DNA from: Saccharibacillus kuerlensis DSM 22868
Lineage (GTDB): Bacteria; Bacillota; Bacilli; Paenibacillales; Paenibacillaceae
Reading direction: 5' to 3'
Length of the DNA: 64,000 nucleotides
Assembly: GCF_000378145.1 (NCBI RefSeq)
Contig: NZ_KB899284.1
Location: 1 to 64,000 of the forward strand
In this document: piece by piece, positions 56,839 to 64,000 of the stretch
How positions within the stretch are numbered: the stretch's first letter is position 1
How the letters are laid out: the number at the start of each line of letters is the position of its first letter
Program-made: the position numbers and the translations under genes
Notes under the pieces: generated by a model
What the model saw: only the letters and a program-made list of their open reading frames with translations
Databases searched by the model: none
What the model was told of the DNA's origin: nothing

Positions 56839-56904
56839 GAGCCGCAGAGCGGAGTCTATCGTATAATGGAGGTATCACATCAAGAGCGGAAAACGGGAGG
56901 ATCT

Positions 56905-57384
56905 ATGTTTATTCAAATTATTGGAGTCGGCAAGCTGAAGGAAAAATATCTCGTCCAGGGGATTGCGGAGTACAGCAAGCGGCTGACGCCGTACCTCAAG
57001 CTGCAGATCATCGAAGTACCGGACGAGAAAGCACCGGATACCCTGAGCGACGCGGAAGTGAAGATTGTGAAGGACAAGGAAGGCGAGCGGATCTTGAGCC
57101 ACATCAAGCCGGATGCTCACGTCATCGCGCTGGCGCTCGACGGTAAAATGTGGAGCTCGGAAGATCTGGCCTCGGAGCTGGATCGGCTGGCGACTTACGG
57201 CAGCAGCCATGTTGTGTTCGTGATCGGCGGCAGCCACGGGATCAGCGACGACGTGTTGAAACGGGCACAGCAGAAGCTGTGTTTTGGTCGGATGACGCTG
57301 CCGCATCAGTTGATGAGGTTGGTGCTGGTGGAGCAGGTGTATCGGGCGGTGAAGATTAATCGGGGAGAACCGTATCATAAGTAG
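56905..57384 (+). CDS. rlmH: 23S rRNA pseudouridine-1915 N3-methyltransferase RlmH
   Basis: This 159-residue SPOUT methyltransferase homologue is called OrfX in staphylococci. It has the knot motif [13 protein letters not shown] and the C-terminal [26 protein letters not shown]. It methylates pseudouridine 1915 of 23S rRNA. The ATG at 56905 is preceded by CGGGAGG. An upstream in-frame start lies before the SD. The last 18 bp (57367-57384) resemble the SCC attachment core. The gene is complete, as it would be after integration at its 3' end. Confidence 0.95.
57367..57384. other. att: Putative SCC-type attachment site at rlmH 3' end
   Basis: GAACCGTATCATAAGTAG encodes the conserved E-P-Y-H-K-stop end of RlmH. 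It closely resembles the staphylococcal SCC core (about GAAGCxTATCATAAxTGA), where Ccr recombinases integrate. The second copy would be at the far end of the element, outside the window. Confidence 0.55.
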
Positions 57385-57515
57385 GGCGAAATTTAAAATA
57401 TAATACTTTTTCGATAATAAGTCGCTAAGTGTCTTTTAAGTACTTTGGATTATCTCATGGAATAACGTTTTTAACTCATGCTTTCTAGAAATACAGAGTT
57501 AAACTGAAATTTCAA

Positions 57516-57544
57516 TTTACTAAAACAAGTTTCTTTGATATAGT
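57516..57544 (+). promoter_or_regulatory. Promoter of the small HTH gene
   Basis: TTTACT (57516-57521), a 17-bp spacer and TATAGT (57539-57544) in the AT-rich flank. Confidence 0.5.
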
Positions 57545-57558
57545 TCATTTAACAGATT

Positions 57559-57578
57559 TTATCGCATATTATCGCATA
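57559..57578 (+). repeat. Tandem 10-bp repeat, candidate operator
   Basis: TTATCGCATA occurs twice in a row (57559-57568 and 57569-57578), one helical turn apart, between the promoter and the SD of the HTH gene. This geometry suits autoregulation by the HTH protein. Confidence 0.5.
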
Positions 57579-57594
57579 AAAGGAGTGGATAGTA

Positions 57595-57870
57595 ATGAAA
57601 TCGAAGTTGACAGAAAGACACCAAGCCATGGCATACGTTTTAAAACATGAGTTTGGATATACGCAGAAGGATATAGCTTCATTAATGAAAGTAAACCAGT
57701 CTACAATAAGTAATGCTATAAAGGAGTTTAAGTTTAAAAAGCAAATCCAGGATTTAAGTTTAGAACTAAAAGAAGCGAGAGATAAAATTTCACAAATTGC
57801 GGAAAAAGGAATCGATTCTTCTACGCTTATTGGATCTCCTATGATAATTGATATAACTCCTAAAAGTTAA
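57595..57870 (+). CDS. Small HTH protein
   Basis: This 91-residue protein has a helix-turn-helix (about 20-45, YTQKDIASLMKVNQSTISNAI) and a helical, Lys/Glu-rich C-terminal half. The coding DNA is AT-rich, unlike its neighbours, a sign of separate origin. AAAAGGAG precedes the ATG. It is probably a regulator or replication/partition accessory of the element. It is convergent with the recombinase genes. Confidence 0.7.
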   Translation: MKSKLTERHQAMAYVLKHEFGYTQKDIASLMKVNQSTISNAIKEFKFKKQIQDLSLELKEARDKISQIAEKGIDSSTLIGSPMIIDITPKS

Positions 57871-57912
57871 TTGGTTATAAAAATCAAATGAATACAAAGA
57901 TTAAGGTAATAC

Positions 57913-59571
57913 TTACAAACCAAATTCAAAATTATTTTTAGTGTCAGAAGACTTGTCGTGTAAAGTAAAAGCCCCTGCCGCTGTATAAGCGGGAGGGGCT
58001 TTATTTAAAAAATGTTTCTGAGCTTCTTCGTTAAATGCTAATTCGATCCGGTCCACTCTCTTCCTCTCATCCAGAGTAATCCGTTTCACAATCAAGTGAA
58101 GCAATGTCTTCCGCTGCACAAACGGTGACCGTCTCAATAACTCCTCGAACCTCTCCATCAAGGAACGCACAAGCTCATAAGGAACTGGCTCCGACTGATC
58201 GTCTCGAACCGCCACCTCCAGCTTCGACCTTCGCCTCAGTTCCACATCCAGCTCCTCATTCAAATCTTTGAGCCTTTCACTGAACAGCAGCCGATCAATC
58301 TCATCCATCTCGTACAGCTCCAGGTACTTCCGTTTCTTCTCCTCCAGCTTCTCGATTCGAGACTTCACAGCAGAAAGTTCAGCCTGCGCCGGTTTGGACT
58401 GCTGAGTCCTTTGCTCGTTTACCCTCTGCACAATCGCCTTCAAAATCGAAGGGTTCTCGACGACGCTACGAATCCGATCAGTCACAGCCTGCTCTGCTTC
58501 CAGCTTGCGAACACTGTTGGCGTGGCAAACAGAACTTCCTTGACTACGAAACCGGCTGCACGAGTAATACATACGAGTCATTTTGGTTCCGTCCCTCATC
58601 CTGTTGACCGTCCGGCTGGCGGTCATCGCCGCCCCGCATTCGGGGCAGCGGATGATTCCGGTCAATAGGTATTCGCCTTCAAAGCGCTTCTGAGGCATCT
58701 TCGATTTTTTTCGTTGAAGGAACTGGACTTTCTCCCACAACTCTTCGGAAATGATCGCCGGGTGAAGCCCTTCTACAATGATCTCGTTATCGCTCTGACC
58801 CCGACGACGTTTCTCGGACCAATTCTCGTAGCGATTATAGCGGATCTTTCCCACGAACATCGGGTTGGTGACAATGTCTTTGATGGCCGTAGTGGAAAAA
58901 GGCTTTTTGCGCTTTGTCCGATGGCCTTCCTGGTTCAGCTCGTTGGCAATTGATTTAAGCCCTCGGCCTCCGGCGTACATTTCAAAGATGCGGCGCACGA
59001 GATTCGCTTCTTCCTCAACCACGATGACTTTCGTATCGCGACCGTACGGATTGCCATACTCATCGACTTTTTGAATCTTGTATCCGAGCGGAACCTGACC
59101 GTTGTGCTTGCCGGTCTTGGCACGCTGCTTATGGCCCATCTTCACGTTCTCTACGATCGTGTTGCGTTCGAGTTCGCCGACGGCTCCCATCATCTGGAGC
59201 GCGAAGCGTCCCATCGGAGTGCCGGTCTCGAAGTTTTCCGAGAATGAGCGAAAAGCTACGTTGTTCTTCTCCAGCAGATCGACAATGTGAAGCAGGTCGA
59301 TGTTCTTGCGCGCCAAGCGGTTGAACTTCCAGACTACCACTTCGCTAAAGCGACGCTCCTTGGCGTCGCGAAGCATCCGCTGAAGTTCGAAGCGGCCGTC
59401 CATGCTTTTGCCGCTGACCCCGCGATCCACGTACTCGTCGAAGATGACCTTGTCATAGAGCTTGCAGTAGGTTCTGAGCGTGTCGAGCTGGGCGTCGATC
59501 GAGTAGCCGTGCTCGGCCTGCTCCTCTGTGCTAACGCGGGCGTAGATGGCTACGCCGGCTGTGTTTTCCAT
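57913..59571 (-). CDS. Large serine recombinase, downstream member of pair
   Basis: This 552-residue recombinase has a catalytic resolvase domain (about 6-150) with Ser14 (IYARVSTEEQ) and conserved Arg residues (RLARK). The recombinase domain (about 165-275), zinc ribbon (CPEC...SCSRF...VCHAN, about 305-350) and coiled coil (about 390-450) follow. It catalyses site-specific integration or excision through a phosphoserine link. The start at 59571 overlaps the upstream recombinase gene by 22 bp, a coupled pair like ccrA/ccrB. The last residues (HDKSSDTKNNFEFGL) are read across a hairpin that looks like a terminator. Confidence 0.93.
   Translation of the reverse strand: MENTAGVAIYARVSTEEQAEHGYSIDAQLDTLRTYCKLYDKVIFDEYVDRGVSGKSMDGRFELQRMLRDAKERRFSEVVVWKFNRLARKNIDLLHIVDLLEKNNVAFRSFSENFETGTPMGRFALQMMGAVGELERNTIVENVKMGHKQRAKTGKHNGQVPLGYKIQKVDEYGNPYGRDTKVIVVEEEANLVRRIFEMYAGGRGLKSIANELNQEGHRTKRKKPFSTTAIKDIVTNPMFVGKIRYNRYENWSEKRRRGQSDNEIIVEGLHPAIISEELWEKVQFLQRKKSKMPQKRFEGEYLLTGIIRCPECGAAMTASRTVNRMRDGTKMTRMYYSCSRFRSQGSSVCHANSVRKLEAEQAVTDRIRSVVENPSILKAIVQRVNEQRTQQSKPAQAELSAVKSRIEKLEEKKRKYLELYEMDEIDRLLFSERLKDLNEELDVELRRRSKLEVAVRDDQSEPVPYELVRSLMERFEELLRRSPFVQRKTLLHLIVKRITLDERKRVDRIELAFNEEAQKHFLNKAPPAYTAAGAFTLHDKSSDTKNNFEFGL
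57967..58003 (-). terminator. Terminator-like hairpin inside the recombinase 3' end
   Basis: GCCCCT-G-CCGC (57971-57981) pairs with GCGG-G-AGGGGC (57989-57999). On the minus strand the stem is followed by TTTTACTTTAC. It lies inside the last 30 codons of the recombinase. It may be the functional terminator of the element's minus-strand operon. Confidence 0.55.
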
Positions 59572-61160
59572 GCGGACTCACTTCCTTTCTCCGGAATACC
59601 TGCGACATTGAGGTTGGCAATCGCGGCCGTTCCGTATAGGGTGGAATTTTTGATCTGGCGATCGGCGGGGACCACGATCTTCTCTATTATGGTTTTCAGC
59701 AATTGCTTCTGCTGCTCGGGCATGGCTTGGCGAAAAATAGAACCGAACCGACTCAGCGCAGTTCTTACTTCTTCCAGATTAGGGCCGTCTGAGCGGATCG
59801 AAGAGGTCTGTCGCTCCAGCTCGACCTTTCGCAATATCAGCGGCTCAGAAGCCGCATCCAGACTGTGCAATTTTTCTTGAAGATCCTCTTTGCTGAGGTA
59901 GTCCTCTTCGAATAGCTCGAAGCAGCGCGTTTTTCGCCGTCGAAGTGTTTTCAGCTCCTTCTCCAACTCGGACAGCTCGCGGAGGAGATCGGAACGATTC
60001 TGCTGGGTATTTTTGCCGCGAATCGCTGAGCAGAGCTGGCTTGTAATCTCTTCGCCGGAAACCAGCCTTTCGATCTGCAGGACTACCCAGCGTTCTATTT
60101 CGTCCGCCGGAACGTGGTTGGCTTTGCAAGCCGCAGCGCCTCGGTTATGGTATCGTCCGCATACATAGTAGTGCCTGAAGAGCAGCGCTCCGCTTTGTCG
60201 CTGCCGTTTGCTATGGATGGGGATCATTCCGCTGCCGCAGCTCGGACACTTGAGCAGACCGGGCAAAAGATACACCCGCTCCGTCTTTTTGGCCGACGGC
60301 TTGGAGCGCTTTTTCAGCTGGAGTTGAACTTGGCTCCACAGCTTGTCGGAAATAATAGGAGGGTGCTCGCCTGCTACAACGTGCTCCGTAAGCTTCCCCT
60401 TAGATTTTCCCGGCTCCTGAGTTCTATACTTGATCTGTCCAATATAGTTCACGTTTCGCAGAATGTTGCGTACGCCGTTCACGCTGAACAGCCGGCCTTT
60501 CTTGGTCCGGATTCCGGACTTGTTGAGCCTGTTGGTAATGGCCTTGAAGCCGAGTCCCGCAGCGTACCACTCAAAAACTTGCCCGACGACCAAAGCCTCT
60601 GCAGGCACGATTTCTGCTCTGGCATTATTTGAGCCAGTCCCGCTGGTTTCCCAGCGGTAGCCGAGCACGAGGTTGCCGCAGTTCCACTTCCCCTGCTTGC
60701 TGCGCTGACGTAGACCCAGGCGCACGTTCTCCGCCGTCTGCTCGCGTTCGAACTGGGCAGCCGCCCCGCGCATCTGGAGCAGAAAAGTGCCGATCGGCGT
60801 ATCCGGCGGCATTTCCTCGGTCAGGCTGTGCATCCGAATGCCGAGAGACTGGAACAGTTCGGCCATCTGGAGGAAGTCCTGCAGGTTCCGCGACAAGCGG
60901 TTCATCCGCAAGAAGACAACCTGTCCAAATGCTCCCTGCTTGGCGTGGTGAAGGAGATCCTGCAGCGCCGGCCGCCCCGTAATCGACTTGCCGGAGATCC
61001 CTTCGTCGGCGTACAGCTTGTAGACGGGGATGGCGTGGAGCGTGCAGTATCGGAGCAGCTCCTCGCGCTGGGCCTCCAGGCTGAATCCCTTGACCTGCTC
61101 CTCGGAAGATACCCGGATGTACAGTGCGGCGGCAGGATTGGCTTTCATCGCGTTGTCCAT
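59550..61160 (-). CDS. Large serine recombinase, upstream member of pair
   Basis: This 536-residue recombinase has Ser18 (LYIRVSSEEQ) in the catalytic domain, and GISGKSITGRPALQDLL and MNRLSRN typical of the family. A recombinase domain (about 170-280), a zinc ribbon (CPSC...VCGRY...ACKAN) and a coiled-coil region follow. It starts 1 nt after the stop of the 42-codon gene and overlaps the second recombinase by 22 bp. The two recombinases are clearly paralogous but diverged, as CcrA and CcrB are. Confidence 0.93.
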   Translation of the reverse strand: MDNAMKANPAAALYIRVSSEEQVKGFSLEAQREELLRYCTLHAIPVYKLYADEGISGKSITGRPALQDLLHHAKQGAFGQVVFLRMNRLSRNLQDFLQMAELFQSLGIRMHSLTEEMPPDTPIGTFLLQMRGAAAQFEREQTAENVRLGLRQRSKQGKWNCGNLVLGYRWETSGTGSNNARAEIVPAEALVVGQVFEWYAAGLGFKAITNRLNKSGIRTKKGRLFSVNGVRNILRNVNYIGQIKYRTQEPGKSKGKLTEHVVAGEHPPIISDKLWSQVQLQLKKRSKPSAKKTERVYLLPGLLKCPSCGSGMIPIHSKRQRQSGALLFRHYYVCGRYHNRGAAACKANHVPADEIERWVVLQIERLVSGEEITSQLCSAIRGKNTQQNRSDLLRELSELEKELKTLRRRKTRCFELFEEDYLSKEDLQEKLHSLDAASEPLILRKVELERQTSSIRSDGPNLEEVRTALSRFGSIFRQAMPEQQKQLLKTIIEKIVVPADRQIKNSTLYGTAAIANLNVAGIPEKGSESAWKTQPA

Positions 61161-61289
61161 CTAAGCTGCCCTATCGTCGGCATCCTCGCTGGAAAGCGTC
61201 TCGGGATTGGCCTCGATATACTGGCAGACCATATCGGAGAGAATGTCGACGAAATGGGCGAACTCTGCGTTTGCGATAGGTGTGTTCAT
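61161..61289 (-). CDS. 42-residue hypothetical protein coupled to the recombinases
   Basis: The reading frame starts MNTPIANAEFAHFVDILSDM and ends DDRAA, with AGGAGGAG 7 nt upstream of the ATG. Its TAG stop is directly followed by the ATG of the upstream recombinase. It is acidic at the C-terminus and has one cysteine. No known family. The strong SD and tight coupling argue that it is translated. Confidence 0.65.
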   Translation of the reverse strand: MNTPIANAEFAHFVDILSDMVCQYIEANPETLSSEDADDRAA

Positions 61290-61329
61290 AGGTTGTCTCC
61301 TCCTGAGTGGATAGTCGTTTTCCTTGCGG

Positions 61330-61794
61330 CTACATCAAGCCTCGTTCTTTCATGCTGGCAAAGCGGTTCTCGCCGAGTACAAGGTGGTCAAGCAGTTCGA
61401 TGCCCATCAGCGATCCGGCATCCCGAATCCGCTCGGTCAGCTCGACGTCTTCGCGGCTCGGATCGGGGAGGCCGGACGGATGGTTGTGGCAGGCGATGAT
61501 TGACGCGGCATTCGCCATGATGGCCAGCTTGAAAGTCTCTCTCGGGTGCACGAGGGAAGCGTTCAGCGTTCCCCGTGACACCTCATGCAGAGCGGTGGGC
61601 TGGTTCTTGGTATCCAGGGTCATGATGCAGAAGACTTCTCGATCAGAGTCCCCGATGAACTGTCGGAACAGCTCGGCGGCTTCTCTCGGACTACTGATCT
61701 TTCGCTGAGGATACAGAATCGACGGTTTTTCTCGAACCATTTTCAGGCTGAGGCACTGGATACGCTTGGCGGGTGTTTTCTTAGGATTGGACAT
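61330..61794 (-). CDS. radC: RadC family JAB domain protein
   Basis: This 154-residue protein consists of the RadC/MPN+ domain with the metal motif HNHPSGLPDPSREDVE (His-x-His-x7-Ser-x2-Asp). It lacks the N-terminal HhH part of full-length RadC (about 225 residues), a form common in mobile elements. The role is unknown but probably in DNA recombination or repair. ACGGAGGAG precedes the ATG. SCC elements also carry radC near the recombinase genes. Confidence 0.9.
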   Translation of the reverse strand: MSNPKKTPAKRIQCLSLKMVREKPSILYPQRKISSPREAAELFRQFIGDSDREVFCIMTLDTKNQPTALHEVSRGTLNASLVHPRETFKLAIMANAASIIACHNHPSGLPDPSREDVELTERIRDAGSLMGIELLDHLVLGENRFASMKERGLM

Positions 61795-61905
61795 GTATAC
61801 TCCTCCGTTTGCTGATCGAATGGGCAGCCGGTTACTCGGGCTGTACGTAGGTATAATATGAGTCCGACTTTTCGTTCAGTTCCCGGAGGAGTCGTGTCAC
61901 TTGTC

Positions 61906-62165
61906 GGGACGCTTAGGGTGCGAGCGACACCGTATATTCCCTTGAGTTACCTGGGTTCTCCGTCTTTTGGGTCGCTGTGGCGCTTTCTTGGAAATCTTTT
62001 TTGGCACCCTGGGGAGGAGGGGGGTTCCTCTATCTCTTTTTTCTATCTTTTTCTTCGAAATAAGTGTCCCAAGCGCCACGGGTTAGACGAGATCCCAGGC
62101 AGCCGTTGGGGAAATGGAGTGGCACCTACCCTTTCGAAGTGTCCCGCAAGCGTCCCAAGTGTCCC
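61906..62165. repeat. 9-bp repeat cluster, candidate replication origin of element
   Basis: AAGTGTCCC occurs at 62062-62070, 62137-62145 and 62157-62165. AAGCGTCCC occurs at 62148-62156 and, inverted, at 61906-61914. Three copies are nearly head-to-tail at 62137-62165. The patch lies between the primase-helicase gene and radC. P4-type elements replicate from iteron arrays next to such primases. No gene is convincing here (61795-62201). Confidence 0.5.
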
Positions 62166-62201
62166 AGAAAGCCAATAGGTAGTAGCAACTTCTTTATGAG
62201 G

Positions 62202-64000
62202 TTATTCAATATCCTCAATATCTGTAATTGTAGTGAATCCTGTCCGCAAATCCGTTGTCTGCTGCGATAGCTGCTTTAGTCTGACTCCCTCCAGCCCGCG
62301 AATGCCTCCCGACTTATAGCGGTTTACTGCTATGTTTTGACCTCGAAGGTTATTTTCGATGGCATTGAGGAGACGCTGATTGTTCATTGGATTGGAGATA
62401 TTGGCACCTGTGCACCAACTCTGGTAGCGGACCGCCATGTCGCGATTCGGTATCCGATCGTCAGGTTTGCCGGCCTCGATGTTGTCCTCAATGAAGCGTT
62501 CGATCGGATCGAGGTCCATTCTATAGTCGTCCAGCGCTTGTCTGGCAGCTCTGGAATTGGAGAATCGGAACTTGTTTTTCTGCAGGCGTCGGAGCCCTCT
62601 CAATGCAAAGTTCAGGATGCCGGGAAGCTCTTTGTTCAGCTTAGCGGCGAGATGAGGATCTTGTTCCTCTTCCCTGAATATGCGATTGAAGGGGAGGACG
62701 ATCAGGCGCCGTGTAAAGCCGTGGCTCTTGTCTCTGGAATAAGGAAGATTGTTCAGCGCCAGAACCAACTTGCAGAACGGCTGATAGGAAAACCCTGGCC
62801 CGTACTTAACTTCGACTCGAATACTGTCTCCTGCTACGACGGACTTGAAGAACTGCGTGTTTAGGCCTTTTGAGCCGACCTCATTCTCCGTAGAGAGGAG
62901 AAGCGACTTGTCGACGAGTTCCGAGCGGGCGAACGCTTGGTCCAGGTCACTCAAGGTCAAGTTTGTAACGTTCTTCTTGCCGACGAGCTGCTCCAATACG
63001 CCAGCCAATATGCTTTTCCCGTTCGCCCCTTGACCGTAGAGTACGAAGGCTTTCTGAGCCTCAACTCCTGAGGTGAGGCAGTAGCCAAACATCTCTGCGG
63101 TAAGGTCGATCAGCTCCTGGTCGTTGTTGTAGATCTGTGCCAGAAACTGATCGAAGCGCGGGCAGGCTGCCTTCGGATTATAATGAATCGGGATGCGAAT
63201 GGTCGAGTGAAATTCCGGCTTATGCCGATAGAGCTTGAAAGGTCTTCTCTCTGGTTCTTTTCGTTTGTTTCTCAAGCTGAGCATTCCGTTCTCTAGATTG
63301 AGCAAATTTCGCCGGCCGTCCATTCTCTCTACAGTTTCGGCTTGCAATTGCAGAGCTTTGAGGTAAGCCTCCTCCGTTATCGGTCTCCAGAAGTCGGCAA
63401 CATAGCCATTCAGAATGTCGCGCAGCTTACGCCGGAGCTGGTTATCGCTAAGGACGTTCCAGACTCCGTCGTCGTATAGGTAGAAGCGGTCCCCCAGTGT
63501 GTGCACGAGCTTGAGGCGATGTTCGACGACGTGCCGGGCAAAGGCGTTCGGGTTGAGCCCCGTTGGTCTTCCGCTGTTACGATCTAGGATGAACCCTACA
63601 GTGGAAAGGTTTACTGAAGGCAGCGGAGCTGCCTTTTTACGGGGAGTAGCAAGAGATTTGACCGGGCTGTTTGTGATCTGTCCTTTTTCGTTCTTGCGCA
63701 CATTGTTCGGAAAGCAGAGGCCGACCTGCTTGACATCGCAGCCAAAAGTTGTGCAGCGCGTACAGCCTTTCGGAGGATTCGCTATGAGCTCGCTTATACG
63801 CCGCTCGCTTCCCGCGTCGTGCTTGACTGAGGCCCGAGAGAAAGCCAGTGCAGCTTGCGGATTACCTGAGGCGATAAGCAGGGAGATCCATTTGTACCAC
63901 CGCTCTTCCGGAAGTCCGTCCTGCTGCTGGATGCTCCAGTCTTGCGCGAAAGCCGGGCAGGAGGATTGCAGGATAGTCAGTGCAGGATCTTCGGCGGGCA
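62202..64000 (-). CDS. P4/D5-type primase-helicase, 5' end beyond window
   Basis: Visible 598 residues; the frame stays open to the right edge, so the gene is partial. The N-terminal visible part has WYKWISLLIASGNPQAALAF and a Cys cluster CTRCTTFGC...GLC (63714-63764), a likely zinc-binding site. The D5_N domain and the SF3 helicase follow, with Walker A YGQGANGKS and NNLPYSRDKSHGFTRRLIVLPF near the sensor/arginine region. It likely initiates replication of the element by priming and unwinding. A GTG at 63701 would give a shorter protein but is internal to a conserved region. Confidence 0.88.
   Translation of the reverse strand, partial: PAEDPALTILQSSCPAFAQDWSIQQQDGLPEERWYKWISLLIASGNPQAALAFSRASVKHDAGSERRISELIANPPKGCTRCTTFGCDVKQVGLCFPNNVRKNEKGQITNSPVKSLATPRKKAAPLPSVNLSTVGFILDRNSGRPTGLNPNAFARHVVEHRLKLVHTLGDRFYLYDDGVWNVLSDNQLRRKLRDILNGYVADFWRPITEEAYLKALQLQAETVERMDGRRNLLNLENGMLSLRNKRKEPERRPFKLYRHKPEFHSTIRIPIHYNPKAACPRFDQFLAQIYNNDQELIDLTAEMFGYCLTSGVEAQKAFVLYGQGANGKSILAGVLEQLVGKKNVTNLTLSDLDQAFARSELVDKSLLLSTENEVGSKGLNTQFFKSVVAGDSIRVEVKYGPGFSYQPFCKLVLALNNLPYSRDKSHGFTRRLIVLPFNRIFREEEQDPHLAAKLNKELPGILNFALRGLRRLQKNKFRFSNSRAARQALDDYRMDLDPIERFIEDNIEAGKPDDRIPNRDMAVRYQSWCTGANISNPMNNQRLLNAIENNLRGQNIAVNRYKSGGIRGLEGVRLKQLSQQTTDLRTGFTTITDIEDIE

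Follow-up and report, generated by a model that had tools for sequence, protein, structure and literature searches.

Toward the right end of the window (the whole stretch of DNA that was analysed, 64,000 nucleotides of Saccharibacillus kuerlensis DSM 22868), the rRNA methyltransferase gene rlmH is followed by an AT-rich leader, a small open reading frame (ORF) with a helix-turn-helix (HTH) and, on the minus strand, the genes for a helicase, RadC and two large serine recombinases, LSR2 and LSR1, in this order. The two recombinase genes overlap by 22 bases, and each product has the domains Resolvase, Recombinase and Zn_ribbon_recom. This is the left third of a cassette integrated in a Saccharibacillus-group chromosome; the rest lies beyond the window end on the same contig (C8, 180 kb; the searchable genome comprises 4.70 Mb in 56 contigs). 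We believe with considerable confidence that the whole is a 17.9 kb integrative element at rlmH, similar in kind to the staphylococcal cassette chromosome (SCC). Such an element was proposed in the original prediction from an AT-rich flank, two overlapping recombinase genes, RadC and a replicative primase-helicase, and all four were found at this place (the G+C content is 41.1% in the 1-kb bin from 57000).

The actual evidence for the element is a second copy of the rlmH end 17,873 bp downstream together with its inverted arm. The copy (attR, C8:75237-75257) lies well within the 100 kb in which the original prediction expected it, and scores 20.3 bits against a matrix of 51 rlmH 3' ends (18 positions); a control of 3.26 Mb (reverse strand, reversed, complemented) gave no match of at least 18 bits and one of at least 16. 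The sequence left of attR (TTCGCTCTGTAACTGATACGG) matches the element's left end (CCGTATCATAAGTAGGGCGAAA) in inverted orientation, with agreement at 20 of 28 ungapped positions, while the best interior position on either strand reached 16 of 28. Closely similar left arms after rlmH and right arms before a second copy are found in five relatives (G009, G113, G340, G294 and G279), the right arm being TTCGCTCT...TACGG at 15.0-17.9 kb from rlmH. At several other loci the matrix search gave no second site inside the fetched stretch, as expected where the element exceeds it. The near-identity of the RlmH 3' end to the staphylococcal attachment core, which was also part of the prediction, is real but carries little weight. 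The core GAACCGTATCATAAG stands at 57367-57381 as the sole exact copy in the 4.70 Mb genome; the stretch encodes the conserved tail EPYHK, which is present with or without an element, so the match is weak evidence alone. The short core by itself is uninformative, because near-matches (up to two mismatches) are no commoner than those of a control pattern (9 places against 10).

Variation at rlmH within the genus points the same way. An LSR1 homologue (E<=1e-60) is present in 5 of the 16 genus genomes, the window genome counted. S. deserti (G009) shares 90.9% identity with the window element over 58700-69660 and has its next match at 79995; past 69660 the window genome has its own restriction-modification and ATPase genes. 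A shared backbone followed by different DNA indicates that the right part of the element is changing cargo. The gene block from 79995 lies downstream of rlmH in 11 of the 15 fetched relatives of the genus, between 0.9 kb (G010) and 17.2 kb (G009) away, and was not within the fetched stretch in the remaining four. The same genes are thus not at the same place in all relatives, in line with the prediction. In G004, a 2.7 kb insert lies between two rlmH-end copies, and its right flank directly adjoins rlmH in G010, G005 and G007. Occupied and empty states of rlmH therefore exist in the genus, for another insert than the window element, and the comparison with empty sites suggested earlier succeeded to that extent. 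At the sequence level, the element is supported by its gene content, both ends, the inverted arms and the similar arms in five relatives, and further by other cargo on the same backbone in another species and by the lack of the recombinase in 11 of the 16 genus genomes.

Table 1. Features of the rlmH region and of the element (positions on contig C8; the window ends at 64000)
Feature	Position	Strand	Remarks
rlmH, host gene with attachment site at its 3' end	56866-57384	+	best NCBIfam model 247.5 bits (cut-off 172); tail EPYHK kept
attL core GGAGAACCGTATCATAAGTAG	57364-57384	+	partner attR at C8:75237-75257, outside the window
Left terminal inverted repeat	57370-57397	+	arm TAGGGCGAAATTT at 57382-57394; similar arms after rlmH in relatives
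AT-rich leader inside the left end	57385-57594		strand not assigned
91-aa HTH ORF	57595-57870	+	between attL and LSR1, convergent with LSR1
LSR1, large serine recombinase, CcrB-like	57913-59571	-	423.7 bits to CcrB (cut-off 900)
LSR2, paired large serine recombinase	59550-61160	-	258.9 bits to the CcrB model
RadC/JAB protein	61330-61794	-
D5/P4-type primase-helicase	62202-64000	-	TIGR01613; open at the window end, ORF as listed to C8:64271
Prim-Pol domain gene	C8:64049-64582	-	Pfam
200-aa ORF			after Prim-Pol; no Pfam match
296-aa ORF			weak FG-GAP match
XRE-type regulator	66870-67232	+
ORFs of 347 and 286 aa			no Pfam matches
Eco57I-type methylase	69749-71338	-
BsuBI/PstI restriction enzyme	71445-72395	+
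ATPase-TOPRIM protein, AriAB-like	72392-74563	+	best PADLOC model AriAB, 77.8 bits
164-aa ORF			after the ATPase; checked against PADLOC alone

The helicase is of the predicted D5/P4 type, and we take it to belong to COG3378; its listed start is provisional, since its ORF overlaps that of Prim-Pol. The 200-aa ORF beside Prim-Pol may be a diverged single-stranded DNA-binding protein (SSB), and the 91-aa HTH ORF is a candidate regulator or directionality factor. The occurrence of the genes was scored by tblastn (a single match covering at least 40% of the query at E<=1e-6) among 123 non-duplicate loci, the window locus included. RadC was found in 57 of them, the XRE-type regulator in 35, the 347-aa ORF in 19, the 286-aa ORF in 15, the helicase in 14, Prim-Pol in 12, and the methylase and the restriction enzyme each in 4. 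No locus but that of the window had the ATPase, the 164-aa ORF or the 91-aa HTH ORF, so that the last has no homologue in the other 122 loci by this search. Phages often carry large serine recombinases (LSR1 matches 389 phage records at E<=1e-20, each below 60% identity), and a prophage or conjugative element using rlmH by chance might be thought of; considering that no phage structural or conjugation family is among the Pfam matches of 14 element proteins, and that the three phage integrases in our tree (below) fall outside the LSR clade, we give this explanation hardly any credit.

Some observations weigh against a 17.9 kb element with these ends. First, 4 of the 21 bases of attR disagree with attL, two of the four within the last 12 bases of rlmH (attL has TATCATAA; attR has TACCATAA, a variant also present in the rlmH of relatives); attR may therefore have decayed. 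Second, an empty site of this very element was not found in a sample of one genome per species. Third, the sequence right of attR, from 75258 to about 79990, gave two short matches downstream of rlmH (151 bp in G015 and 49 bp in G002) in a comparison with 17 fetched relatives, 15 of them of the genus (one for 9 kb only). Fourth, no relaxase or transfer family is among the Pfam matches of 14 element proteins (the 164-aa ORF was checked against PADLOC alone). Finally, a third, degenerate copy of the rlmH end lies at 83003-83023 beside a remnant of rlmH, which indicates a layered history of the region.

The mismatch between attR and attL would also suit an immobile remnant, i.e., an old rlmH island whose ends have drifted and which is retained for its defence genes. 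LSR1 is indeed broken in the related elements of G009 (internal deletion) and G006 (partial, two stops). In the window element itself, however, the reading frames of both recombinases, RadC, the helicase and Prim-Pol are open and free of internal stops, and the inverted arms are well preserved; we hold a remnant to be unlikely, if worth keeping in mind. The third copy, in turn, could be the end of a larger element (25.6 kb), or the region could be a composite of two insertions: rlmH-end DNA matches 82973-83022 at 82%, and multiple rlmH-end copies are common in the loci of relatives. But the left context of the copy at 83003-83023 is rlmH coding sequence without an element arm, so it is better read as a fragment of rlmH, and the block from 79995 follows rlmH in the 11 genus relatives whether an element is present or not. 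We find this explanation quite improbable.

A few observations on the same region may be added. The 82% match at 82973-83022 was taken first as attR; it was rejected since rlmH coding sequence lies to its left and the preceding block is chromosomal in relatives. The remnant (C8:82917-83023) is a degenerate partial rlmH, 25.6 kb downstream of rlmH, in which two separated parts of the gene are joined. Other fragments or frame-broken copies downstream of rlmH occur in G007 (locus L086, about 4 kb), G224 (L105, +38.6 kb) and G304 (L222). The segment C8:75258-79990, nearly missing from the stretches of relatives, contains an acetyltransferase-like ORF, a membrane protein and a kinase-regulator pair (named by eye); it may represent another island, one whose right end was not recognised.

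For the SCC-like element of 17.9 kb, we propose the following course of events, in which excision, replication of the circle, transfer and defence activity are predicted from the gene content and the ends. LSR1 and LSR2 would act on a site common to the chromosome (the last codons of rlmH) and the circular element, whose arms would be GATACGG...CCGTATC and TAGGGCGAAATTT. Integration would keep the tail of the RlmH protein as it is and place a second rlmH-end copy at the far end; the reverse recombination would release the circle. Prim-Pol and the D5-type helicase of the element may prime and copy this circle, and the exchangeable right part (the BsuBI/PstI-type restriction-modification pair and the AriAB-like ATPase-TOPRIM protein) would guard the host from phages.

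The recombinases belong to a family that is widely associated with rlmH. LSR1 homologues were found in 62 of 394 genomes of the family, 50 of which have one at most 25 kb downstream of rlmH; of 94 matches to LSR1, 73 are within 25 kb downstream of rlmH, 11 on another contig and 10 elsewhere. A scan of named bacterial genomes gave 534 confirmed stretches, and the best 80 of these correspond to 79 loci. Among these best-scoring loci, rlmH is present within the fetched stretch in 58, facing the 3' end of the recombinase gene in 54 and on its far side in 4; several of the 21 loci without rlmH end at contig ends. The genera with rlmH-containing loci in this best-scoring set include Paenibacillus, Cohnella, Brevibacillus, Alicyclobacillus, Niallia, Virgibacillus, Bacillus and Staphylococcus, and the recombinase family also occurs near rlmH in two clostridial draft genomes.

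That the recombinases differ from Ccr, as the original prediction stated, is borne out by the curated models. Both proteins are far under the CcrB cut-off (Table 1) and likewise do not reach those of CcrA and CcrC; LSR1 is overall 37% identical to CcrB. No protein exceeds the CcrB family cut-off in the window genome or in any of 14 control genomes. A tree of 148 recombinases (a quick method with midpoint rooting, long branches, three phage integrases and no CcrC reference) places LSR1 with its relatives in a supported clade of 25 and LSR2 with its relatives in another of 22, several pairings recurring in both. Both recombinases are outside the staphylococcal CcrB and CcrA clades. The staphylococcal CcrB clade groups with the recombinases of class C (described below) and not with LSR1 (SH-aLRT 93), CcrA stands apart, and the three phage integrases are outside the LSR clades, so that with these phages and this root the recombinases do not group with phage integrases. 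The tree favours, without proving, an origin of the LSR pair independent of CcrA/CcrB; the approximately unbiased test does not reject a topology that unites LSR2 with CcrA (p-AU 0.163). The suggestion of an independent lineage at the same site is accordingly favoured, not settled. It looks as if the element works like an SCC, yet its recombinases are not Ccr by curated models.

The arms tend to go with the class of the recombinase, the classes having been set by eye. For pairs of the LSR1 type, the left arms after the rlmH stop are mostly TAGGGCGAAATTT or close variants. A second group has [GC]GGCAAGTT (G218, G126, G273, G208 and G271). The third group, class C, where one recombinase gene was seen per locus, has GGTAAAATA or close variants. 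The right arms detected are inverse to the left ones: TTCGCTCTA; AACTTGCCGTTA (in G218, G126 and G271); and TTTACCCTA, respectively; the search with the rlmH-end matrix detected no right arm for G273 and G208. Several recombinase classes are thus served by a single chromosomal site. Ends of class C elements were also observed at sites other than rlmH, at L218 (G395) and G208:C217:267791, which are probable secondary insertion sites.

Some relatives of the window cassette appear to damage the gene that they enter and to carry a spare. Of the 101 loci that contain a host rlmH, 9 have a changed tail of the host RlmH, with YRL, YRF, YRR, YIF, YIFQG or YLV in place of YHK (12 duplicate loci and the loci without rlmH were dropped, and the stretches are of unequal length). 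All nine, namely L095 and L122-L125 of Paenibacillaceae and L201, L203, L204 and L207 of Bacillaceae, contain an additional RlmH ORF that is at least 90 aa long and has a PYHK tail. No such ORF is present in the 92 loci whose tail is YHK or YHR, most of which belong to other recombinase classes than C. This count misses a frame-broken second rlmH in G007, where the tail is intact. On the class C tree (19 rows, 9 with changed tails and 10 without), at least four changes of the tail state are needed; three independent pairs on supported branches each go in the expected direction, which is too few to decide (sign test, p 0.25).

The second copies are of two kinds. Those of the four Bacillaceae loci have 159-161 aa, the other three being 87-88% identical to that of L201, to which the three host RlmH copies compared are 56-61% identical. 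The Paenibacillaceae copies have 133 aa and are 30-38% identical to the window RlmH; they are without the glycine-rich loop of the S-adenosylmethionine (SAM) site and a stretch before it, and keep EQxYR and HPYHK. The hosts with changed tails, five Paenibacillaceae and four Bacillaceae, keep the GGS loop. The small RlmH is under constraint: the ratio of nonsynonymous to synonymous substitution rates (dN/dS) is 0.14, 0.10 and 0.11 in the three pairs not near saturation, and 0.08-0.18 over the nine pairs computed.

In the 394 family genomes, 389 of which have an rlmH match, the small RlmH occurs in 11; arms that would alter the tail occur in 8, by a pattern search that covers class C arms only. 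The arm is at rlmH in G117, G119, G132, G139, G170 and G195, and all six have the small RlmH (the recombinase match of G170 lacks its N-terminal part). It is away from rlmH in G395, which has the small RlmH, and in G208, which is without it and has an intact host rlmH. A strict rule of rescue is contradicted by G227, G300, G306, G368 and G395, which combine the small gene with an intact host tail. This gene lies 9 kb from rlmH and has three stops in G306, is 2.6 Mb away in G300 and on another contig in G368 and G395, and is intact, 1.5 kb from rlmH, in G227.

PMC5430550 reports that the E. coli RlmH variants Y152F, H153F and R154A have no detectable activity, the tail residues being essential for catalysis, and that the active site is split over two monomers, with the SAM site from one and the tail from the other; the equivalence of this tail to that of the class C hosts rests on alignment ends. 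As one monomer's SAM site joins the other's tail, the reduced RlmH could be a tail donor: a host RlmH whose tail no longer works and an element RlmH that lacks the SAM site would together make one working site. It is conceivable, at somewhat short of even chances in our judgement, that class C elements inactivate RlmH on entry and bring the rescue, and that the host then depends on the element as on an addiction module. Both the loss of host activity and its restoration by the second copy are predictions. Literature searches recognised no report of a second or compensating rlmH carried by an element, which is not proof of absence.

Some class C arms end in ATCGC, which gives the RlmH tail YHR (L199, L200, L202 and L205; also G060, G070, G030 and G338). 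Such an arm is at rlmH in L199, L200, L202, L205 and G030, and away from it in G060 and G338. A single RlmH is present in each of the four loci, and the small RlmH is absent from the genomes G060, G070, G030 and G338.

The origin of SCC elements is an open question, and the end of rlmH docks a diverse recombinase family in Paenibacillaceae, Bacillaceae and other Bacilli. The presence of several recombinase classes at one gene offers material for tracing this origin and for new site-specific recombinases. With the class C elements, it can be tested whether a mobile element damages a conserved rRNA methyltransferase and makes up for this with a replacement or a complementing subunit.

It remains to relate the window element to known systems. 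With SCC it shares the rlmH site with TA[TC]CATAA, the second attachment copy, the terminal inverted repeats, a helicase followed by two tandem recombinases, and a JAB/RadC gene nearby; it differs in recombinases far under the Ccr model cut-offs and in that no SAUGI, DUF960 or DUF1643 is among the Pfam matches of 14 element proteins. The helicase, which the original prediction regarded as a difference, does not set it apart, as PMC10061031 lists a COG3378 helicase for SCCmec type V. The Enterococcus cassette chromosome (PMC6222049) is alike in the rlmH 3' end, attL/attR of about 50 bp, a dyad in attR and variable cargo; its ccrAB is similar to that of SCCmec and it belongs to another genus. 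The CcrDE island of Staphylococcus brunensis (PMC10581047) is likewise an SCC-related island with a recombinase gene complex; by its title it lies outside rlmH.

The closest counterparts are in PMC10061031, which reports islands downstream of rlmH with large serine recombinases, detected via Pol-SSB genes, and among them a composite with two such recombinases in Paenibacillus pinistramenti; restriction-modification cargo is mentioned. The view that this kind of element had no description in Paenibacillaceae therefore has to be given up: rlmH islands of this kind have been in print since 2023 for Paenibacillus and other Bacillota. The recombinase pair of P. pinistramenti (L143/G114) groups with LSR1 and LSR2, being 53% and 38% identical to them, respectively, and Niallia nealsonii (L144), another example in that source, also has such a pair. 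The likeness extends to the rlmH site, the two recombinases adjoining a COG3378-type helicase, the composites, the restriction-modification cargo and a second copy of the last ~12 bp of rlmH (in the attR of the element, 2 of these 12 differ from attL). In those islands, an A-family Pol and SSB pair stands beside the helicase, whereas a Prim-Pol domain gene does so here. The window element thus adds a member to a kind already described, and its distinguishing features are its recombinase clade and the Prim-Pol gene in place of the Pol-SSB pair.

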